From contig JAKSVI010000001.1 in the NCBI GenBank assembly GCA_024408095.1, forward strand, positions 1 through 33,813: a stretch of 33,813 nucleotides of DNA, in the 5' to 3' direction. Position 1 is the stretch's first letter; every line of letters begins with the position of its first letter. The stretch is from Bacilli bacterium (lineage in GTDB: Bacteria > Bacillota_I > Bacilli_A > RFN20 > CAG-826). Positions 7,401 through 20,610 of the stretch are shown one piece after another. Position numbers and translations under genes: made by a program. The notes under the pieces were generated by a model, which was given only the letters and a program-made list of their open reading frames with translations, made no database searches and had not been told where the DNA came from.

Positions 7401-7466
7401 ATGAAAGATTTGAAAAAGGAGGATTCAAAAATTACAAGATATTTACATTTTTTCAACTGTGTTTAA
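7401..7466 (+). CDS. Possible 21-codon leader ORF containing an orphan Shine-Dalgarno
   Basis: ATG at 7401 opens a 21-aa frame (MKDLKKEDSKITRYLHFFNCV) ending in TAA at 7464-7466, within the 236-nt gap before the large lipoprotein gene. No Shine-Dalgarno precedes this ATG. A near-perfect one (AAAGGAGG, 7415-7422) lies inside the frame with no ATG, GTG or TTG at usable spacing after it. It may be chance, a leader peptide, or the remnant of a lost start. Confidence 0.2.
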   Translation: MKDLKKEDSKITRYLHFFNCV

Positions 7467-7470
7467 TAAT
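7442..7470 (+). promoter_or_regulatory. Candidate promoter for the phosphoesterase lipoprotein
   Basis: TTTACA (7442-7447), a 17-nt spacer and AATAAT (7465-7470) give a predicted start near 7477, just upstream of the Shine-Dalgarno-like AAGAGGA before ATG 7496. The -10 match is imperfect. Confidence 0.45.
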
Positions 7471-7495: not shown

Positions 7496-10400
7496 ATGAA
7501 AAAAGGATTAATATTGTCAATTATCGGATTAACTATTTTTGGTATGGTTTTAACTTCTTGTAGCCCTAGTAACACTGAGCAAAAAGAAACCGAAAAAGTA
7601 TCAATTACAGTTATTAACGGCTCTGGAACAGGTATTTATGAAAAAGGTAAGTCAATAACTATTTCTACTTTGCCTCAACAAGGGAAAATATTTATTGGCT
7701 GGATGAAAGATAATCAATTAGTTTCGACTCTAATGACATATACATTTACTGCTAACGATGATGGCGTTTATATTGCCCATTTTGAAGATGAAGAAAAACC
7801 AGTAAAAGTTAATATTATTGTTGAAGGCGGAACAGGTAGTGGAACTTATGATGTTGGAGACAGTGTTACTATAATTGCAACTCCTCAACAAGGAAAAACA
7901 TTTGTTAGATGGATGTATAAAGGCGACATTGTTTCAACAGATACTACTTACACATTCATAGCTTCTGAATCTGGAACTTATACTGCAATATTTGTCGATT
8001 CAGGACTTAGAGTATATGAAAAAACAATAATTAAAAAATCAAATCAAGATTTTAAAATCCTAAATTTTACCGATATTCAATTACATGATGGAGAAGATTA
8101 TTCTGTTGCAGAACATGTTATTGAGACTCTTGTTGAAAGAGAAAAACCAGATATGATTACATTTTTAGGTGATTTACTTAATGATGATAAAACATATAAC
8201 TCAGTAGTTAATGCTAAGAAATTCATTAGCCAAGTTGATAGCTATGATATTCCATGGGCGCCAATATTTGGCAACCATGATTATGAAGACTACCAAACTG
8301 GCTATCAATCCGCTAAAACAACAACAAGTAGTGAACTTGCAAGTTGGTATTCTGAAGCTGAGAACTGTTTATTTACATATGGACCATCTGAAGTTCCTGG
8401 CAAGGGTAATTATTTTGTAACCGTTGAGGATGAAACAACAGGAAAACCTGTTCAAACACTTATCTTCTTTGATTCTAGATTAAGCGGTTTATCTGATGCT
8501 CACGATACATTCTATAGACAAATCATCGATTATTCTAAGGGAAAGAATGATGGAAAACTTGTTCCATCCACATTCTTCTCACATATAGCTTTATCGCAAT
8601 ATGGTGATGAGTATGAAAAGTCTAGACAATGTGAATATTCTAATATTGTTGGTTCAATAAGTAGAAATCCATGTGATTTGGCAAGCGGAACTAGATTACT
8701 TTTCGAATCTATGAAAGAACTTGGATCGACTGATATGGTAGTTTGTGGCCACGATCACGAAAACGCTTATTATACCGTTAAAGATGGAATTACACTTGGT
8801 TATTCGATGAAATCATCTCAAGGTGATAATTTTACTAATTTTGCCGAAATTGGCGGTTCAGTTGTTACATTTAGTGATGAAACAAAATCGCTTAAATATT
8901 CTAAAGTTCTTGACCTTGAAATGAAATTAACAGGAACGAGCTCTAAAATGGGTGATTATGTTATTCATCCAGATACATTACCTAATTGGAGATTTTCTGG
9001 TGGAAAGCTATGCTTTGATATAGAAATTCCAAAATCTGGAAGCCTTAAATTTAATATTGAAGGAACAAATAAATATAGACCAAATCAAGATGAAAAAACT
9101 AGACTTGGTGAATGGAATAGATTAACAACAAATGTTGATATTGTTGGTGGTTCGAATCCTACAGTAGATTTTGGTAGATTAACAAAAATTTCTGGTTCTA
9201 AATATTCATACGAACTTGATTTAACGAAAATTGATTTGAATTTAGCTGGTGGTGAAGAAGCTTATGGAAGCGAAACTGCTAGACTAGTTTATTTCAATAG
9301 TATTATTGGAGATTTTAAAATTACAAATTTCCGCTATGAAATGGAAAAAATTACAGAAACAAATCAGGCCGATTTAGCAAATGCAGTCGTAGGAAAAGTT
9401 GATGATAAATTTGTTGATCGCGGCCTTCCTATAAGGCCAACACCTACAGTTTCTCTTAATGAAACCAATCTTGTTTTTGCAGATGATTTCTATATTGTTT
9501 TTGAAAATAATTTTAATGCAGGCATTGCAAAGGGAACGATTTTACCTTCTGGCAAGGGTGCTCATAAGTACAAAGGAAGCAAAGAATTTACATTTAACAT
9601 AGTTGAAAATCCTGATGATGACAAAAAACCAGGTCATGAGAATGCTATTCAAATTGATGAAAATATTGCATTAGAAAAGAATAATTTCATTGGTGAAGCC
9701 GGTTTAAAAGATTGGCATGCAGAAGGAAATGTCCTTCAATTTGATATTAAACCTTTAGTTTATGGTAAGAAAAAAGGAGAAGAAGGGGAAACAACCAGAT
9801 TTGCACTTTTTGGAACCAATTTAAATCTTCCTGAATCTCAAAGACAAGGCAGTTGGGATAGACTCACCGACTATTATCATATTGACTTTGGAACGAAATC
9901 TATTCATCTTACAGGTAAGACATCTGAAGATAATACTATTTGTCATTTTGTAGATATTACAGATGGATGGTATAGAGTGAGCATACCACTTAATAAGTTT
10001 GTATTAAATGATGGTGCACAAGGCAATGATAATGAGACATTAAAATTAATTTACTTTGAATACGTTAAACGCAGTTTTAAGATTGCCAATTTTAAAGTTA
10101 ATGGTGGTGATGAACCATTTGTTAAAACTACAGAATTTAAGATGAATGATGATGATTTTGTTGTAGCTAACTTTACTGATGTTCATGTGACTGATCAATC
10201 TATGATAAGTGAAACAGGAACCACTGGAAAAACAATTAAATATGGTGTTGAACATTCCAATCCAGACATCATGTTGTTTTCGGGTGATGTTGCGGGAAAT
10301 TTGACTCAATTAGGTTACTTATTAGATTATTTAGACCAATTTGAAATTCCATATTTCTTTGTTCAAGGAAATCATGATCATCAATTTTTGAATTACAATT

Positions 10401-11113
10401 CAATGGAAACAAGAATTGCACAATCGAAGTATGGTTATATTGAAAAAGGACCTGACAGTTTAGCATCACAAGGAAATTACACGATTAAAATTAAGAATTC
10501 TAGCGATGAGCTTGTTCATGGATTCATTATGATGGATACTGGAAACAAACATTCAACAATTGATGATTCATTAGTTGAATATGTTAAAAATCCAATTTCA
10601 GGTGTTAAATACGGAAGTTATAAAGGCCAAACAACATATTGTGATTCACAAGGTTGGGATGGATTACATGGCAATCAAATTGATTGGTATGAAAGTACTG
10701 TTAATGAACTTGGCTGTGATACATCATTAATATGCCATATCCCACCTTTAGAGTTTGTTAAAGCATATGAGCAATATCAAGACGCTAAAAATAAAAGTGA
10801 CACAGCAGCAATCGCTGCATGTGCACCTATTGGTCAATGTAATATGGGTGAACAATGTTGTGGTTCGATTGAACAATATGGTCTTTTTGAAAGCGTTTTA
10901 TCACTTGGCAGCACTAAAAATATTATTTGTGGTCATGATCATTTGAATGATTTTAGTTTACTTTATAAAGGTGTGAGACTTACTTATTCTTTAAAAACAG
11001 GCGAGGGATCCTATTGGAAAGATGATGGAACCCGTTGCGGTTATACTGAATTAACAATTGATAAGTCTGGCAAAACCTCACTTGATCAAATTTATTTTAA
11101 TCCATTAATTTAA
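7496..11113 (+). CDS. Surface lipoprotein with two metallophosphoesterase domains
   Basis: This 1205-aa lipoprotein has a hydrophobic signal peptide and lipobox LTSC (about residues 19-22), so it should be anchored outside the membrane. Two InlB-B-like beta repeats follow (about 35-98 and 101-168, each with GKxF..W and YTF motifs). A calcineurin-like phosphoesterase domain spans about 180-470: D193/H197 in DIQLH, D226 in GDLLND, N260-H261 in GNHD, H363, and H419/H421 in GHDH. Two related beta modules follow (about 480-625 and 735-875, sharing RLGEWNRLT/RQGSWDRLT and a final FKITNF/FKIANF). A second complete phosphoesterase spans about 885-1200: D895/H897 in DVH, D931, N959-H960, H1081, H1147/H1149. 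A cluster C1109, C1115, C1121, C1122 lies in the second domain. All metal ligands look intact in both. The substrate is unknown; phosphate release from extracellular phosphoesters is inferred. The start is supported by AAGAGGA before ATG. Confidence 0.9.
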   Translation: MKKGLILSIIGLTIFGMVLTSCSPSNTEQKETEKVSITVINGSGTGIYEKGKSITISTLPQQGKIFIGWMKDNQLVSTLMTYTFTANDDGVYIAHFEDEEKPVKVNIIVEGGTGSGTYDVGDSVTIIATPQQGKTFVRWMYKGDIVSTDTTYTFIASESGTYTAIFVDSGLRVYEKTIIKKSNQDFKILNFTDIQLHDGEDYSVAEHVIETLVEREKPDMITFLGDLLNDDKTYNSVVNAKKFISQVDSYDIPWAPIFGNHDYEDYQTGYQSAKTTTSSELASWYSEAENCLFTYGPSEVPGKGNYFVTVEDETTGKPVQTLIFFDSRLSGLSDAHDTFYRQIIDYSKGKNDGKLVPSTFFSHIALSQYGDEYEKSRQCEYSNIVGSISRNPCDLASGTRLLFESMKELGSTDMVVCGHDHENAYYTVKDGITLGYSMKSSQGDNFTNFAEIGGSVVTFSDETKSLKYSKVLDLEMKLTGTSSKMGDYVIHPDTLPNWRFSGGKLCFDIEIPKSGSLKFNIEGTNKYRPNQDEKTRLGEWNRLTTNVDIVGGSNPTVDFGRLTKISGSKYSYELDLTKIDLNLAGGEEAYGSETARLVYFNSIIGDFKITNFRYEMEKITETNQADLANAVVGKVDDKFVDRGLPIRPTPTVSLNETNLVFADDFYIVFENNFNAGIAKGTILPSGKGAHKYKGSKEFTFNIVENPDDDKKPGHENAIQIDENIALEKNNFIGEAGLKDWHAEGNVLQFDIKPLVYGKKKGEEGETTRFALFGTNLNLPESQRQGSWDRLTDYYHIDFGTKSIHLTGKTSEDNTICHFVDITDGWYRVSIPLNKFVLNDGAQGNDNETLKLIYFEYVKRSFKIANFKVNGGDEPFVKTTEFKMNDDDFVVANFTDVHVTDQSMISETGTTGKTIKYGVEHSNPDIMLFSGDVAGNLTQLGYLLDYLDQFEIPYFFVQGNHDHQFLNYNSMETRIAQSKYGYIEKGPDSLASQGNYTIKIKNSSDELVHGFIMMDTGNKHSTIDDSLVEYVKNPISGVKYGSYKGQTTYCDSQGWDGLHGNQIDWYESTVNELGCDTSLICHIPPLEFVKAYEQYQDAKNKSDTAAIAACAPIGQCNMGEQCCGSIEQYGLFESVLSLGSTKNIICGHDHLNDFSLLYKGVRLTYSLKTGEGSYWKDDGTRCGYTELTIDKSGKTSLDQIYFNPLI

Positions 11114-11185: not shown

Positions 11186-11287
11186 GCGAATTGAAAAACT
11201 AAATGCAACTTTATAGTCGAAAACAAAATTTGGCAGATTAAATGCAATAAAATAGGTTCCCTAAACAGCATTGGGGAATCCTTTTTT
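11186..11287 (+). ncRNA. Candidate small RNA of about 100 nt
   Basis: The 360-nt gap 11114-11473 contains no convincing ORF. A promoter at 11151-11179 predicts a start near 11186, and a strong terminator hairpin ends at 11287, enclosing about 100 nt of non-coding sequence. Inside it the segment TAAATGCAA occurs twice (about 11200-11208 and 11239-11247), each followed by an A/T stretch ending in ATAG. The alternative is that this is just the long 3' untranslated region of the lipoprotein mRNA. The rest of the gap (11288-11473) is AT-rich and contains only the promoter of the next gene. Confidence 0.4.
11255..11287 (+). terminator. Intrinsic terminator
   Basis: GGTTCCCTAA (11255-11264) pairs with TTGGGGAATCC (11271-11281) with one bulge and one G-U pair around ACAGCA, followed by TTTTTT to 11287. 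It ends the lipoprotein transcript and/or the candidate small RNA. Confidence 0.75.
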
Positions 11288-12828: not shown

Positions 12829-14871
12829 ATGAAAAAGAACCCTATATTTAAACTTATAGCCCCTTCAATTGCGGCTATTATTGCTTGCGGAACTGCCGCC
12901 GTCGGTGCGACATACGCTCTTTTTACTAGCAAGGCAGAATCTAATGTTATTATTACTGCTGGTAAAGTAAAAGTAGAATCAAGAATTGAAAATTTTCAAA
13001 CCTATTCAGGAAAATGGAATGACACAACTAGTTCATATGACATTGTTCCAACAGAAGAATTAGGTAAATTTAGTGTTGGTGGTACAGCTACTCTTTCAGA
13101 TGGCACATTAACTCTTGATCGAATTGTACCAATGGACAAAGTTGAATTCGACCTTGTCACAAAAAATCTCAGCAATGTTGAGGTTAAAGGTAGATACATC
13201 TATCAAGTTACCGAAGATGATGGTTTATTTGCTGGATTAAATGTTACTTTAGATGGACAAAAATTTGATGGAATCACAAAATATACCAAATGGGATACAT
13301 TACCAACTGGTGAAAAAACAGTCCACGTTGTAGCAGAACTTCCAAATACTGATGATGATGGATCAAATGATAACAAATATCAAGAAAAGACATGCTCCAT
13401 GAAATTTAGTATTGAAGCAGTCCAAGGTAACGCTCATGTAGTTGATGTACCTGAAGGCTTTGTTACTATTTATAATGCAAATGATTATAAATTATTCTCA
13501 AAATATGCAACTCAAGGATTATTAATGGATGCTGATGTTGTATTAATGAATGACATTGATCTTCAAAACGAATTAATGTCACCAATTACAAAATTTACAG
13601 GCACTTTTGATGGAAATGGTAAAACAATTTCAAACGTTAACATTAAAGGAGAAAAGAAAGTTGGTTTATTTGGTGAACTCACTTCACGCGGCACTGTCAA
13701 AAATTTAACAGTTAATGGCGCTAAAGTTGAAGGCATCAACGCTGTTGGAACAATTGCGGGTCTCGTATATTATGCTGACGTTGAAGGTTGCACAGTTAAA
13801 AACGCTGAAGTTATTTCTAAAGTAAAAAATAATGATGATGGAGACAAGGTTGGCGCTGTTGTTGGCCGTCTTTCTGTTGAAGAAGGAACAGGATCTGTTA
13901 AAAATTGTGCTGCACTTGACTCAAAAGTTACTGGTTATAGACAAGTTGGCAGTGTTTTAGGCGGAGCATATAAGACATCAGGTTCTTATGATATAAGTGG
14001 AAATACCGCTAAAAACATCAATATTCTTTGCGACATGACTGAAAATCCTGAAGGATATTCAGACATGAAAGATGTTAGACCTGTCGTAGGAAATGTTGAA
14101 TACGATCCTAGCGCAGCTGAAAATGTTGTTATTAACAAAATCCAACCTGTCGTTGTGAATCCAGGTCAATCAGTTAAAGAAGCTGTTTCATCTGCTTTGG
14201 CAAATTCAGTTCCAGGCGATAAACTTGTTCTTCCAGAAGTCGAAGGTTTAATTACTCTTCCTAATTTAAAAAATGGTATTACTCTCGACGGAAATGGTAA
14301 TAGAGTCGATACCTCAGAAGGTATGTTGGCACCAAATAATGCTACAATTAAAAATTTGTCATTTGAAAAAATTGGTAATACAAATTACCATGGATTTACG
14401 AATGACGGGTTGTTCGAAAATTGCGTTTTTGATGGTAGACTTACAACATATGGACTCCAAAAATTTGTAAATTGCACATTCAATATGGCCGTTTATGATT
14501 ATAATATTTGGGCTTATGGCAATGCTGAATTTGTTGGTTGCACATTTAATGGATTGGGAAAAGCCTTAAAAATTTATAATGAAAGTTCAAATCCTTCTCA
14601 AACCATCAGTGTTTTAGTGAAAGATTGCGTTTTTAACGCTCCTGTTGATAATACTAACAATAAACCAGCTATTGCTATCGATTCTCGTGGATGTATGTAC
14701 AATGTTACAATTTTAAACGCTGAAGTTAATAACTTTGCCGTCGCTCAAGATACTGCTATGGCTAATTGGTGGGTAAGAATTAGTGGTGCTAGCGACTATA
14801 TTAAAATGTTAGTTGGCGCCGAAAATACAATTTCAACCGTTAGCGTTTCAGTTGATGGCGTAATGTATTAA
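12829..14871 (+). CDS. SipW-type secreted protein with GLUG and beta-helix repeats
   Basis: This 680-aa secreted protein has a signal region ending in GATYALFTSKAESNVIITAG (about residues 26-45), the pattern of SipW-dependent signal peptides found in TasA/camelysin-like proteins. A beta-sandwich region follows (about 45-205). GLUG-type repeats lie at about 250-380, with FDGNGKTISNV, GLFGEL and VGAVVGRL motifs. The C-terminal half (about 440-680) has short Asn/Gly-rich strands with FENCVFDG, FVNCTFN and FVGCTFNG steps typical of a right-handed parallel beta-helix. No LPXTG anchor or membrane span is at the C-terminus, so it is probably released or polymerised. SipW signal peptidase is not in the window. 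Shine-Dalgarno GGGAGGT lies just before ATG. A role in matrix or adhesion is inferred from the families only. Confidence 0.85.
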   Translation: MKKNPIFKLIAPSIAAIIACGTAAVGATYALFTSKAESNVIITAGKVKVESRIENFQTYSGKWNDTTSSYDIVPTEELGKFSVGGTATLSDGTLTLDRIVPMDKVEFDLVTKNLSNVEVKGRYIYQVTEDDGLFAGLNVTLDGQKFDGITKYTKWDTLPTGEKTVHVVAELPNTDDDGSNDNKYQEKTCSMKFSIEAVQGNAHVVDVPEGFVTIYNANDYKLFSKYATQGLLMDADVVLMNDIDLQNELMSPITKFTGTFDGNGKTISNVNIKGEKKVGLFGELTSRGTVKNLTVNGAKVEGINAVGTIAGLVYYADVEGCTVKNAEVISKVKNNDDGDKVGAVVGRLSVEEGTGSVKNCAALDSKVTGYRQVGSVLGGAYKTSGSYDISGNTAKNINILCDMTENPEGYSDMKDVRPVVGNVEYDPSAAENVVINKIQPVVVNPGQSVKEAVSSALANSVPGDKLVLPEVEGLITLPNLKNGITLDGNGNRVDTSEGMLAPNNATIKNLSFEKIGNTNYHGFTNDGLFENCVFDGRLTTYGLQKFVNCTFNMAVYDYNIWAYGNAEFVGCTFNGLGKALKIYNESSNPSQTISVLVKDCVFNAPVDNTNNKPAIAIDSRGCMYNVTILNAEVNNFAVAQDTAMANWWVRISGASDYIKMLVGAENTISTVSVSVDGVMY

Positions 14872-19404: not shown

Positions 19405-19427
19405 TGCGCGATTTGCACATTATTTTT
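19397..19427. terminator. Bidirectional terminator between convergent genes
   Basis: AAAAATAATG (19397-19406) pairs perfectly with CATTATTTTT (19418-19427), with extra inner GC pairs around GATTT. It overlaps the rbfA stop (19402-19404) and the minus-strand stop (19420-19422), serving both genes. Confidence 0.85.
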
Positions 19428-20610
19428 CCTTATATATCATTTTTACGTGATCTATATTTGCTTCTTTAAATTTTCTGCCAGTTTTAATAAATCCGCATTT
19501 TTCATAAAACTTTTGAGCGGAAACCATAGCGTTTAAATAAATGGTTTTAGGATTATAAATGCCCCATAAATAGTGGGCAAAATATATTAATGATTGTTTG
19601 CCTAATCCTTTACCTCGATATTTTTTTAAAATAGCAAATCTTCCTATTTGAATTTCATTTTCTTTTTCAATATATCTAATCGTGCCTATCGGCTGGTCAT
19701 CTTTAATTATTAAAAACCCTTTTGCACATTTTTCTTCTTCTACAACAAATTCATATTTAAATGGAATATCAAACTCATTAGTAAATACATTAGTTCTTAT
19801 ATTAATATAATCAACATATTGATTTGGTGATGTAATAGGCACTAATGATAGATTATCTTGCGAAACTTGTAGTGCGATATCTTTTTCCCATAAATCATGT
19901 CTTTCATAGTTATCTAACATGGTTAAAAAGTTTTCTTTACTTGTTGGATATTTTTTATTTATGGTTTTAAGTAATTCTTTAATGTCCTCTCTGGTTGTAA
20001 CTTTATCACTTGGACAATGAGAAGGAATTGCAATAAGCCCTTCTTCTTTCATTAAGGAGATTATTTCTTTTTCTCTCACTAATATAAGTGGGCGAATAAA
20101 TGTGATATTAGCTCTTTCTAATTTCATTTTTGGCGAAAATGTAGCGACTCTTCCACCATAAATTTCATTCATAAATAATGTTTCTATTGCATCATCAGCA
20201 TGATGAGCAAAAGCCACTTTGTTATAACCTAATTCAATTGCTACCTTATTAATTGCGGCTTTTTTCATTCTTGAGCAAATTGAACACGGAAGATGATTGT
20301 GATCTTTTTGTTGAATAGACAGTATCTTATAAACATCACGAGCATCGTGAACAATTAACTTTAAGCCTATATTTTCACAAAATTCTTCTAAAGGCTTAGA
20401 ATCGAAACCAGGAAATCCTAAATCAAGTGTTACTGGCTGAATGATGAAATTAGTGTGTGAAAACTTTTGGTATAAAGAAAGTGCATAGCAAAGCGCCATA
20501 CTATCTTTACCGCCAGATAATCCAACAACAATTTTATCTCCGTGATTTATGAGATTATATTTTTGGTCTGCTTTTCTTAGGCATGCTAAGACAGTTCTTA
20601 TTGCTTTCAT
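19420..20610 (-). CDS. TtcA-like tRNA thiolase fused to a GNAT acetyltransferase
   Basis: This 396-aa two-domain protein has an N-terminal (about 1-240) PP-loop ATPase of the TtcA type: SGGKDS at 32-37, PCSIC with Cys109 and Cys112, HHADDAIETLFMN at 136-148, and Cys199 in HCPSD. The three Cys match the ligands of the [4Fe-4S] cluster used by TtcA to make 2-thiocytidine in tRNA. The C-terminal part (about 285-396) is a GNAT domain of the ElaA/YjcF type, with the acetyl-CoA loop YRGKGLGKQ, an FYEKCGF strand-helix and an EANIDH motif. TilS is unlikely because the paired Cys are present. The fusion is in frame without a stop. It is convergent with rbfA and divergent from truB. TATAAT lies 8 nt before ATG, so it is probably leaderless. 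Confidence 0.85.
   Translation of the reverse strand: MKAIRTVLACLRKADQKYNLINHGDKIVVGLSGGKDSMALCYALSLYQKFSHTNFIIQPVTLDLGFPGFDSKPLEEFCENIGLKLIVHDARDVYKILSIQQKDHNHLPCSICSRMKKAAINKVAIELGYNKVAFAHHADDAIETLFMNEIYGGRVATFSPKMKLERANITFIRPLILVREKEIISLMKEEGLIAIPSHCPSDKVTTREDIKELLKTINKKYPTSKENFLTMLDNYERHDLWEKDIALQVSQDNLSLVPITSPNQYVDYINIRTNVFTNEFDIPFKYEFVVEEEKCAKGFLIIKDDQPIGTIRYIEKENEIQIGRFAILKKYRGKGLGKQSLIYFAHYLWGIYNPKTIYLNAMVSAQKFYEKCGFIKTGRKFKEANIDHVKMIYKEK

Follow-up and report, generated by a model that had tools for sequence, protein, structure and literature searches.

Two metallophosphoesterase domains of separate ancestry in one bacterial lipoprotein, probably joined by gene fusion

Results

The gene and its surroundings

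The window (the whole 33,813-nt stretch of DNA analysed here) comes from an uncultured gut-type bacterium and carries at positions 7496-11113 of the + strand a gene for a lipoprotein with two metallophosphoesterase (MPE) domains, a single open frame with an ATG start that encodes 1205 aa. Its product begins with a signal peptide and a lipobox, LTSC, with Cys22 as the lipoprotein cysteine (7496-7561, +; MKKGLILSIIGLTIFGMVLTSC22, read by eye from the translation). Two divergent InlB B-repeats come next (residues ~35-97 and ~104-168; 7598-7999, +; two stretches of Pfam PF18998, E 2.9e-13), followed by the first MPE domain, MPE1 (residues 174-475; 8015-8920, +), which is of the D-x-Q type and is delimited by Pfam PF00149, its ligand columns and Foldseek. 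The middle of the protein consists of beta module 1 (residues 486-618; 8951-9349, +), a linker domain (residues ~619-730; 9350-9685, +) and beta module 2 (residues 731-869; 9686-10102, +). After a short candidate fusion junction (10103-10117, +), the chain ends with MPE2 (residues 875-1205; 10118-11110, +), which is of the D-x-H type and is placed by the second Metallophos stretch in Pfam, its ligand columns and Foldseek. Pfam thus finds two Metallophos stretches, with E 2.7e-18 for the whole 1205-aa protein, and the domain order is InlB-InlB-MPE1-beta module 1-linker-beta module 2-MPE2. The initial annotation had this order right, except that it missed the linker domain of ~90-110 aa between the beta modules.

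An intrinsic terminator lies downstream (11255-11280, +; 10-bp stem and T-run, -12.7 kcal/mol, z -2.5), and a promoter-like site is present at 7442-7470, such sites being no more frequent in the region than expected by chance; together, the two seem to fit a one-gene unit. The neighbours are housekeeping or unrelated genes (cardiolipin synthase, HAD, MntP, Sel1, LRR; rimP-nusA-infB), so that the operon context gives no pointer to the substrate. Elsewhere in the window, a 680-aa ORF at 12829-14871, between an LRR_5 protein and rimP, has no Pfam match, and ORFs of 261 and 205 aa at 839-2415, near an ECF-type transporter subunit gene, match neither Pfam nor NCBIfam. Between rbfA and truB, in the opposite orientation to the adjacent genes, lies a gene (19420-20610, -) for a 396-aa protein that combines a PP-loop ATPase domain and a GNAT acetyltransferase domain in one chain.

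Both heads keep a full set of metal ligands

When 42 MPE domains are aligned, the ligand residues prove to be D193, Q195, D226, N260, H363, H419 and H421 in MPE1, and D895, H897, D931, N959, H1081, H1147 and H1149 in MPE2. Because all seven ligand columns are filled (D-Q-D-N-H-H-H and D-H-D-N-H-H-H, respectively), both heads look catalytically complete. A PF00149 score above the cut-off together with five ligand motifs places MPE1 in the metallophosphoesterase (calcineurin-like) superfamily, and MPE2 belongs there by its own PF00149 score (31.8 bits versus a cut-off of 21.5; 10163-10423, E 1.1e-7) and its ligand motifs. Aligned with each other, the two domains share 23% identity over 310 columns and score 68.9 bits in BLASTP, whereas none of 100 shuffles exceeded 23.1 bits; on this comparison, they are truly related. 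The earlier claim that one lipoprotein carries two complete, separated MPE domains thus holds, with all seven ligands in each, two Pfam stretches and fold models of moderate confidence behind it. It also held that both heads retain the metal-ligand motifs, which they do, with the correction that motif I of MPE1 reads not D-x-H but D-x-Q (D193-I-Q195).

Within the 42-domain alignment, D-x-Q is common to the whole MPE1 clade and occurs in other members too. MPE1 has the D[V/I]Q motif I that marks the ADPRibase-Mn-like family. In human ADPRibase-Mn, Gln27 was modelled as a ligand of metal 1, and the Q27H substitution lowered the efficiency ~11- to 27-fold (PMC4334965). By analogy with this active enzyme, D-x-Q is to be regarded as a working variant of motif I.

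The four cysteines that had been described as special to MPE2 (C1109, C1115, C1121 and C1122; 10820-10861, +) are present in a loop of this domain, and their peculiarity was overstated. Of the four, only C1115 and one cysteine at or next to 1121/1122 recur in the MPE2-clade relatives C17 and L019 (both described below), whereas C1109 does not. MPE1 carries cysteines of its own in this loop region, C379 and C393, which are not kept in its relative L009. C1115 may plausibly form a disulfide with C1121/C1122; nothing points to a metal site at the cluster.

Predicted structures and the beta modules

AlphaFold models, built on thin alignments and of moderate confidence, have a mean pLDDT of 59.5 and 57.7 and are more reliable in the MPE cores than elsewhere. 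The best Foldseek matches of MPE1 are a purple acid phosphatase (5uq6, E 1.4e-8) and a dimetal phosphatase (2nxf, E 8e-7), and those of MPE2 are Lmo2642 (2xmo, E 1.3e-7) and a purple acid phosphatase (E 1.9e-7); Mre11 is also matched by both. The structure prediction and structural search that the initial annotation proposed as a check return an MPE fold for each head, the support for MPE2 being not fully independent since its model alignment contained MPE1-type rows. A single-sequence search of the PDB gave nothing useful, and a profile search gave superfamily-level matches only.

Purple acid phosphatases carry an Fe-coordinating Tyr within GDxxY, and this Tyr is absent from both heads (GD226-L-L-N229 and GD931-V-A-G934). 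Identity to the purple acid phosphatases and Lmo2642 is 13-16%, and the substrate is not comparable. MPE1 shares with the ADPRibase-Mn-like family (2nxf) the D-x-Q motif I and the dimetal MPE fold, but identity is ~12% and the studied members are eukaryotic enzymes. The family also has specific regions, s2s3, h2 and h7h8; in the MPE1 model, confidence in the loops is low.

The two beta modules are related to each other, as had been proposed: they align with 28% identity over 136 aa at 44.3 bits, compared with at most 19.2 bits in 100 shuffles. Each is predicted to be a CBM-like beta sandwich, a reading drawn from weak matches. Module 1, predicted mostly beta, is defined by orthology to module 1 of the relatives L009 and L018 (43-50% identity), and module 2 by orthology to their module 2 and a weak CBM30 match. 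The best Pfam match to CBM30 (PF21582, 16.5 bits, E 0.0082) remains below the cut-off of 27, and Foldseek gives CBM30 a probability of 0.95 at E 7e-3; we did not accept the modules as CBM30. The linker domain has no Pfam match; it is predicted to be beta-rich from the strands in the model and is 51-52% identical to its counterpart in L009 and L018.

Relatives encode the two halves separately

The closest relatives of the N-terminal part, L009/L017 (836 aa) and L018 (880 aa), come from two genomes; they correspond to the window protein over the stretch between the InlB repeats and module 2, both included, and then end. The MPE1 of L009/L017 is 59% identical to that of the window; L009 was recorded from a Bacilli MAG from horse faeces, and the neighbours of L009 and L018 differ, so the genomic context is not conserved. 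MPE2-type domains occur in separate proteins: the nearest (48%) is a 923-aa protein on contig C17 of the same genome, in which three other beta modules precede the MPE, and another, L019, is a 384-aa single-domain lipoprotein (37%) in a relative's genome. The junction in the window protein falls where the L009/L018 ORFs reach their stop codon and where mature L019 begins. The genome with L017 (G043) also has a broken MPE2-type remnant, 55% identical in one piece, on another contig, C39. This gene (L092, 2559-2951) is devoid of the stretch between GNHDH and GHDH, as if these two similar His motifs had recombined, and has a stop codon near its start.

One further protein combines an MPE1-type domain with a second MPE. 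L010 (JAFYVL010000014.1, 1199-7879), a secreted 2226-aa protein of Oscillospiraceae RGIG7458, has a D-x-H MPE at residues ~773-1000 and a D-x-Q domain of the MPE1 type at 1528-1820 (43% identity to MPE1), along with a module-1-like domain. It differs from the window protein in that its other MPE is of another type and N-terminal, and in its many other beta repeats; a beta module that bears the motif W-x-x-Y-[FY]-G-Y recurs many times in it. L010 is a second pairing of an MPE1-type domain with another kind of MPE, independent of the window protein.

A domain-architecture search for lipoproteins with two MPEs separated by two modules bore out that the layout is rare: it occurs in one of the 279 genomes of the order (196 of the family were searched), the genus being represented in the searched set by this one genome. 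Samples of the class and phylum, searched at strict E-values, yielded no further double MPE; the samples have members in common, and distant pairs would escape such a threshold. There was one weak match among viral contigs, plasmids had single MPEs only (~24%), and phages had none. Our literature searches for two metallophosphoesterase domains, or for an MPE with InlB repeats, found nothing.

Discussion

Origin of the two-headed protein

The initial annotation explained the mirror-like arrangement by an intragenic duplication in which an MPE-module unit was copied and the order inverted, and it is true that MPE1 and MPE2, as well as modules 1 and 2, are each recognisably related. The trees contradict this. 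A tree of the 42 rows places MPE1 in a clade with L009, L010 and L018 (100/99) and MPE2 in another with C17, L019 and L066 (96/94); forcing the two together costs 146.6 log-likelihood units, and the sister pairing is rejected with p-AU 5.7e-47. As each head sits in a separate, supported clade with outside members, the MPE domains did not arise by duplication inside this gene. In the module tree, module 1 of the window protein pairs with module 1 of L009/L018 (97/98) and module 2 with theirs (100/99), and because these counterparts belong to single-MPE proteins, the module pair is older than its join with MPE2. With both modules and the linker already adjacent in relatives that have no MPE2, and MPE2-type domains in proteins of their own, duplication with inversion is refuted for the MPE domains and retains next to no credence overall. 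The mirror-like module order is a by-product of the addition of a second MPE at the C-terminus.

Under the simplest history, two different surface phosphoesterases became one protein by a fusion at domain borders: an InlB-MPE1-module-linker-module lipoprotein would have been joined in frame to the separately encoded surface phosphoesterase MPE2. GC3 is alike on both sides of the join (18.5% in MPE1, 18.9% in module 2, 18.4% in MPE2) and thus gives no hint that foreign DNA was recently acquired. We infer fusion over repeated loss. The double-MPE form could instead be ancestral, with MPE2 lost in the relatives, and the MPE1-clade relatives are so few (three besides the window) that the polarity rests on little data; yet this would require at least two losses, both ending just past module 2, would leave unexplained why C17 and L019, the nearest MPE2 relatives, are separate proteins with other N-termini, and does not fit well with the MPE2-type remnant of a single-MPE relative on another contig. 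We consider it unlikely. Since the layout is seen in one genome only, a draft of 65 contigs and 83% completeness, an assembly chimera of two genes also has to be weighed; the two parts meet in frame and at domain borders, within a contig of 108 kb, GC3 is the same on both sides, the gene has its own terminator and neither half has a near-identical copy elsewhere in the genome, which makes a chimera highly improbable.

A different question is whether both heads work. One of them alone might be catalytically important, the other having a binding or stability role like that of the second pair in EecP (below), and the D-x-Q of MPE1 departs from the commoner D-x-H; nevertheless, all ligands are kept in both, and D-x-Q is clade-wide and shared with the active ADPRibase-Mn family, which leaves this a minority view worth some weight. 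Taken as a whole, a two-headed, lipid-anchored surface enzyme that arose by fusion of two phosphoesterases is the explanation we hold to be probable, and the duplication reading is corrected accordingly.

Comparison with known two-headed phosphoesterases

Two-headed surface MPEs are a known kind. Bacillus subtilis YfkN, a trifunctional nucleotide phosphoesterase, has been described as a natural cpdB-ushA fusion and is induced by phosphate starvation (PMC8475336), and the cell-wall c-di-AMP phosphodiesterase EecP of Enterococcus faecalis has two tandem MP-NT pairs with ~24% mutual identity, of which the first does most of the c-di-AMP breakdown and the second a minor part (PMC13229355). Like YfkN, the window protein unites two different MPE catalytic units in one large extracellular protein, and like EecP its two extracellular units have low mutual identity. 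Unlike both, it does not carry 5_nucleotid_C after each MPE: PF02872 was not found in the window protein, while the same kind of scan finds it elsewhere in the genome. Each YfkN unit consists of Metallophos plus 5_nucleotid_C and belongs to other MPE subfamilies, and EecP has MP-NT pairs, an LPxTG anchor, no interposed modules and c-di-AMP as its substrate, whereas the window protein is a lipoprotein with InlB repeats and beta modules. Without the defining 5_nucleotid_C domain, it is no member of the YfkN/EecP type. The layout is unusual, not unprecedented, and we found no description, in the literature searched, of a variant from another subfamily with interposed beta modules.

Possible function and genomic setting

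In the most likely reading, the protein acts at the cell surface and its two phosphoesterase specificities complement each other; by analogy with YfkN and EecP, two substrates are plausible. The analysis gave no support to processive use of a single substrate, which the initial annotation had also raised. The InlB repeats would form a stalk, and for the beta modules, glycan binding or packing against the heads is probable. Two different phosphate bonds are the probable targets of the D-x-Q and D-x-H heads, which may act in successive steps on one organic phosphate; the phosphate and the carbon moiety set free would then be taken up, giving the enzyme a scavenging role. Fused genes often mark proteins that act together, and this rare fused form may thus link MPE1-type and MPE2-type enzymes that occur apart in relatives. 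The window protein and L010, with the opposite order, are two cases only, a hint that such MPE pairing is favoured. It is a speculative, rather doubtful extension that D-x-Q and D-x-H heads were fused repeatedly for consecutive steps on one glycan-linked organic phosphate; if true, the protein would be a surface enzyme of a sort not yet described, one that works in two steps and brings its own modules for substrate binding.

The 1.1-Mb genome has eleven Metallophos matches, among others on contigs C3, C5, C13, C17, C20 and C34 (L046-L051), and one canonical 5'-nucleotidase. At least five of the matches lie in large secreted multi-domain proteins, often together with Ig-like, laminin-G-like/lectin-like or similar beta modules. 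Such an investment in surface phosphoesterases is unusual, and several large secreted Metallophos proteins point to extracellular organic-phosphate use as a repeated theme. Best read as a two-headed surface phosphoesterase, the fused protein offers a single construct with which to find the extracellular substrates of this bacterial lineage.
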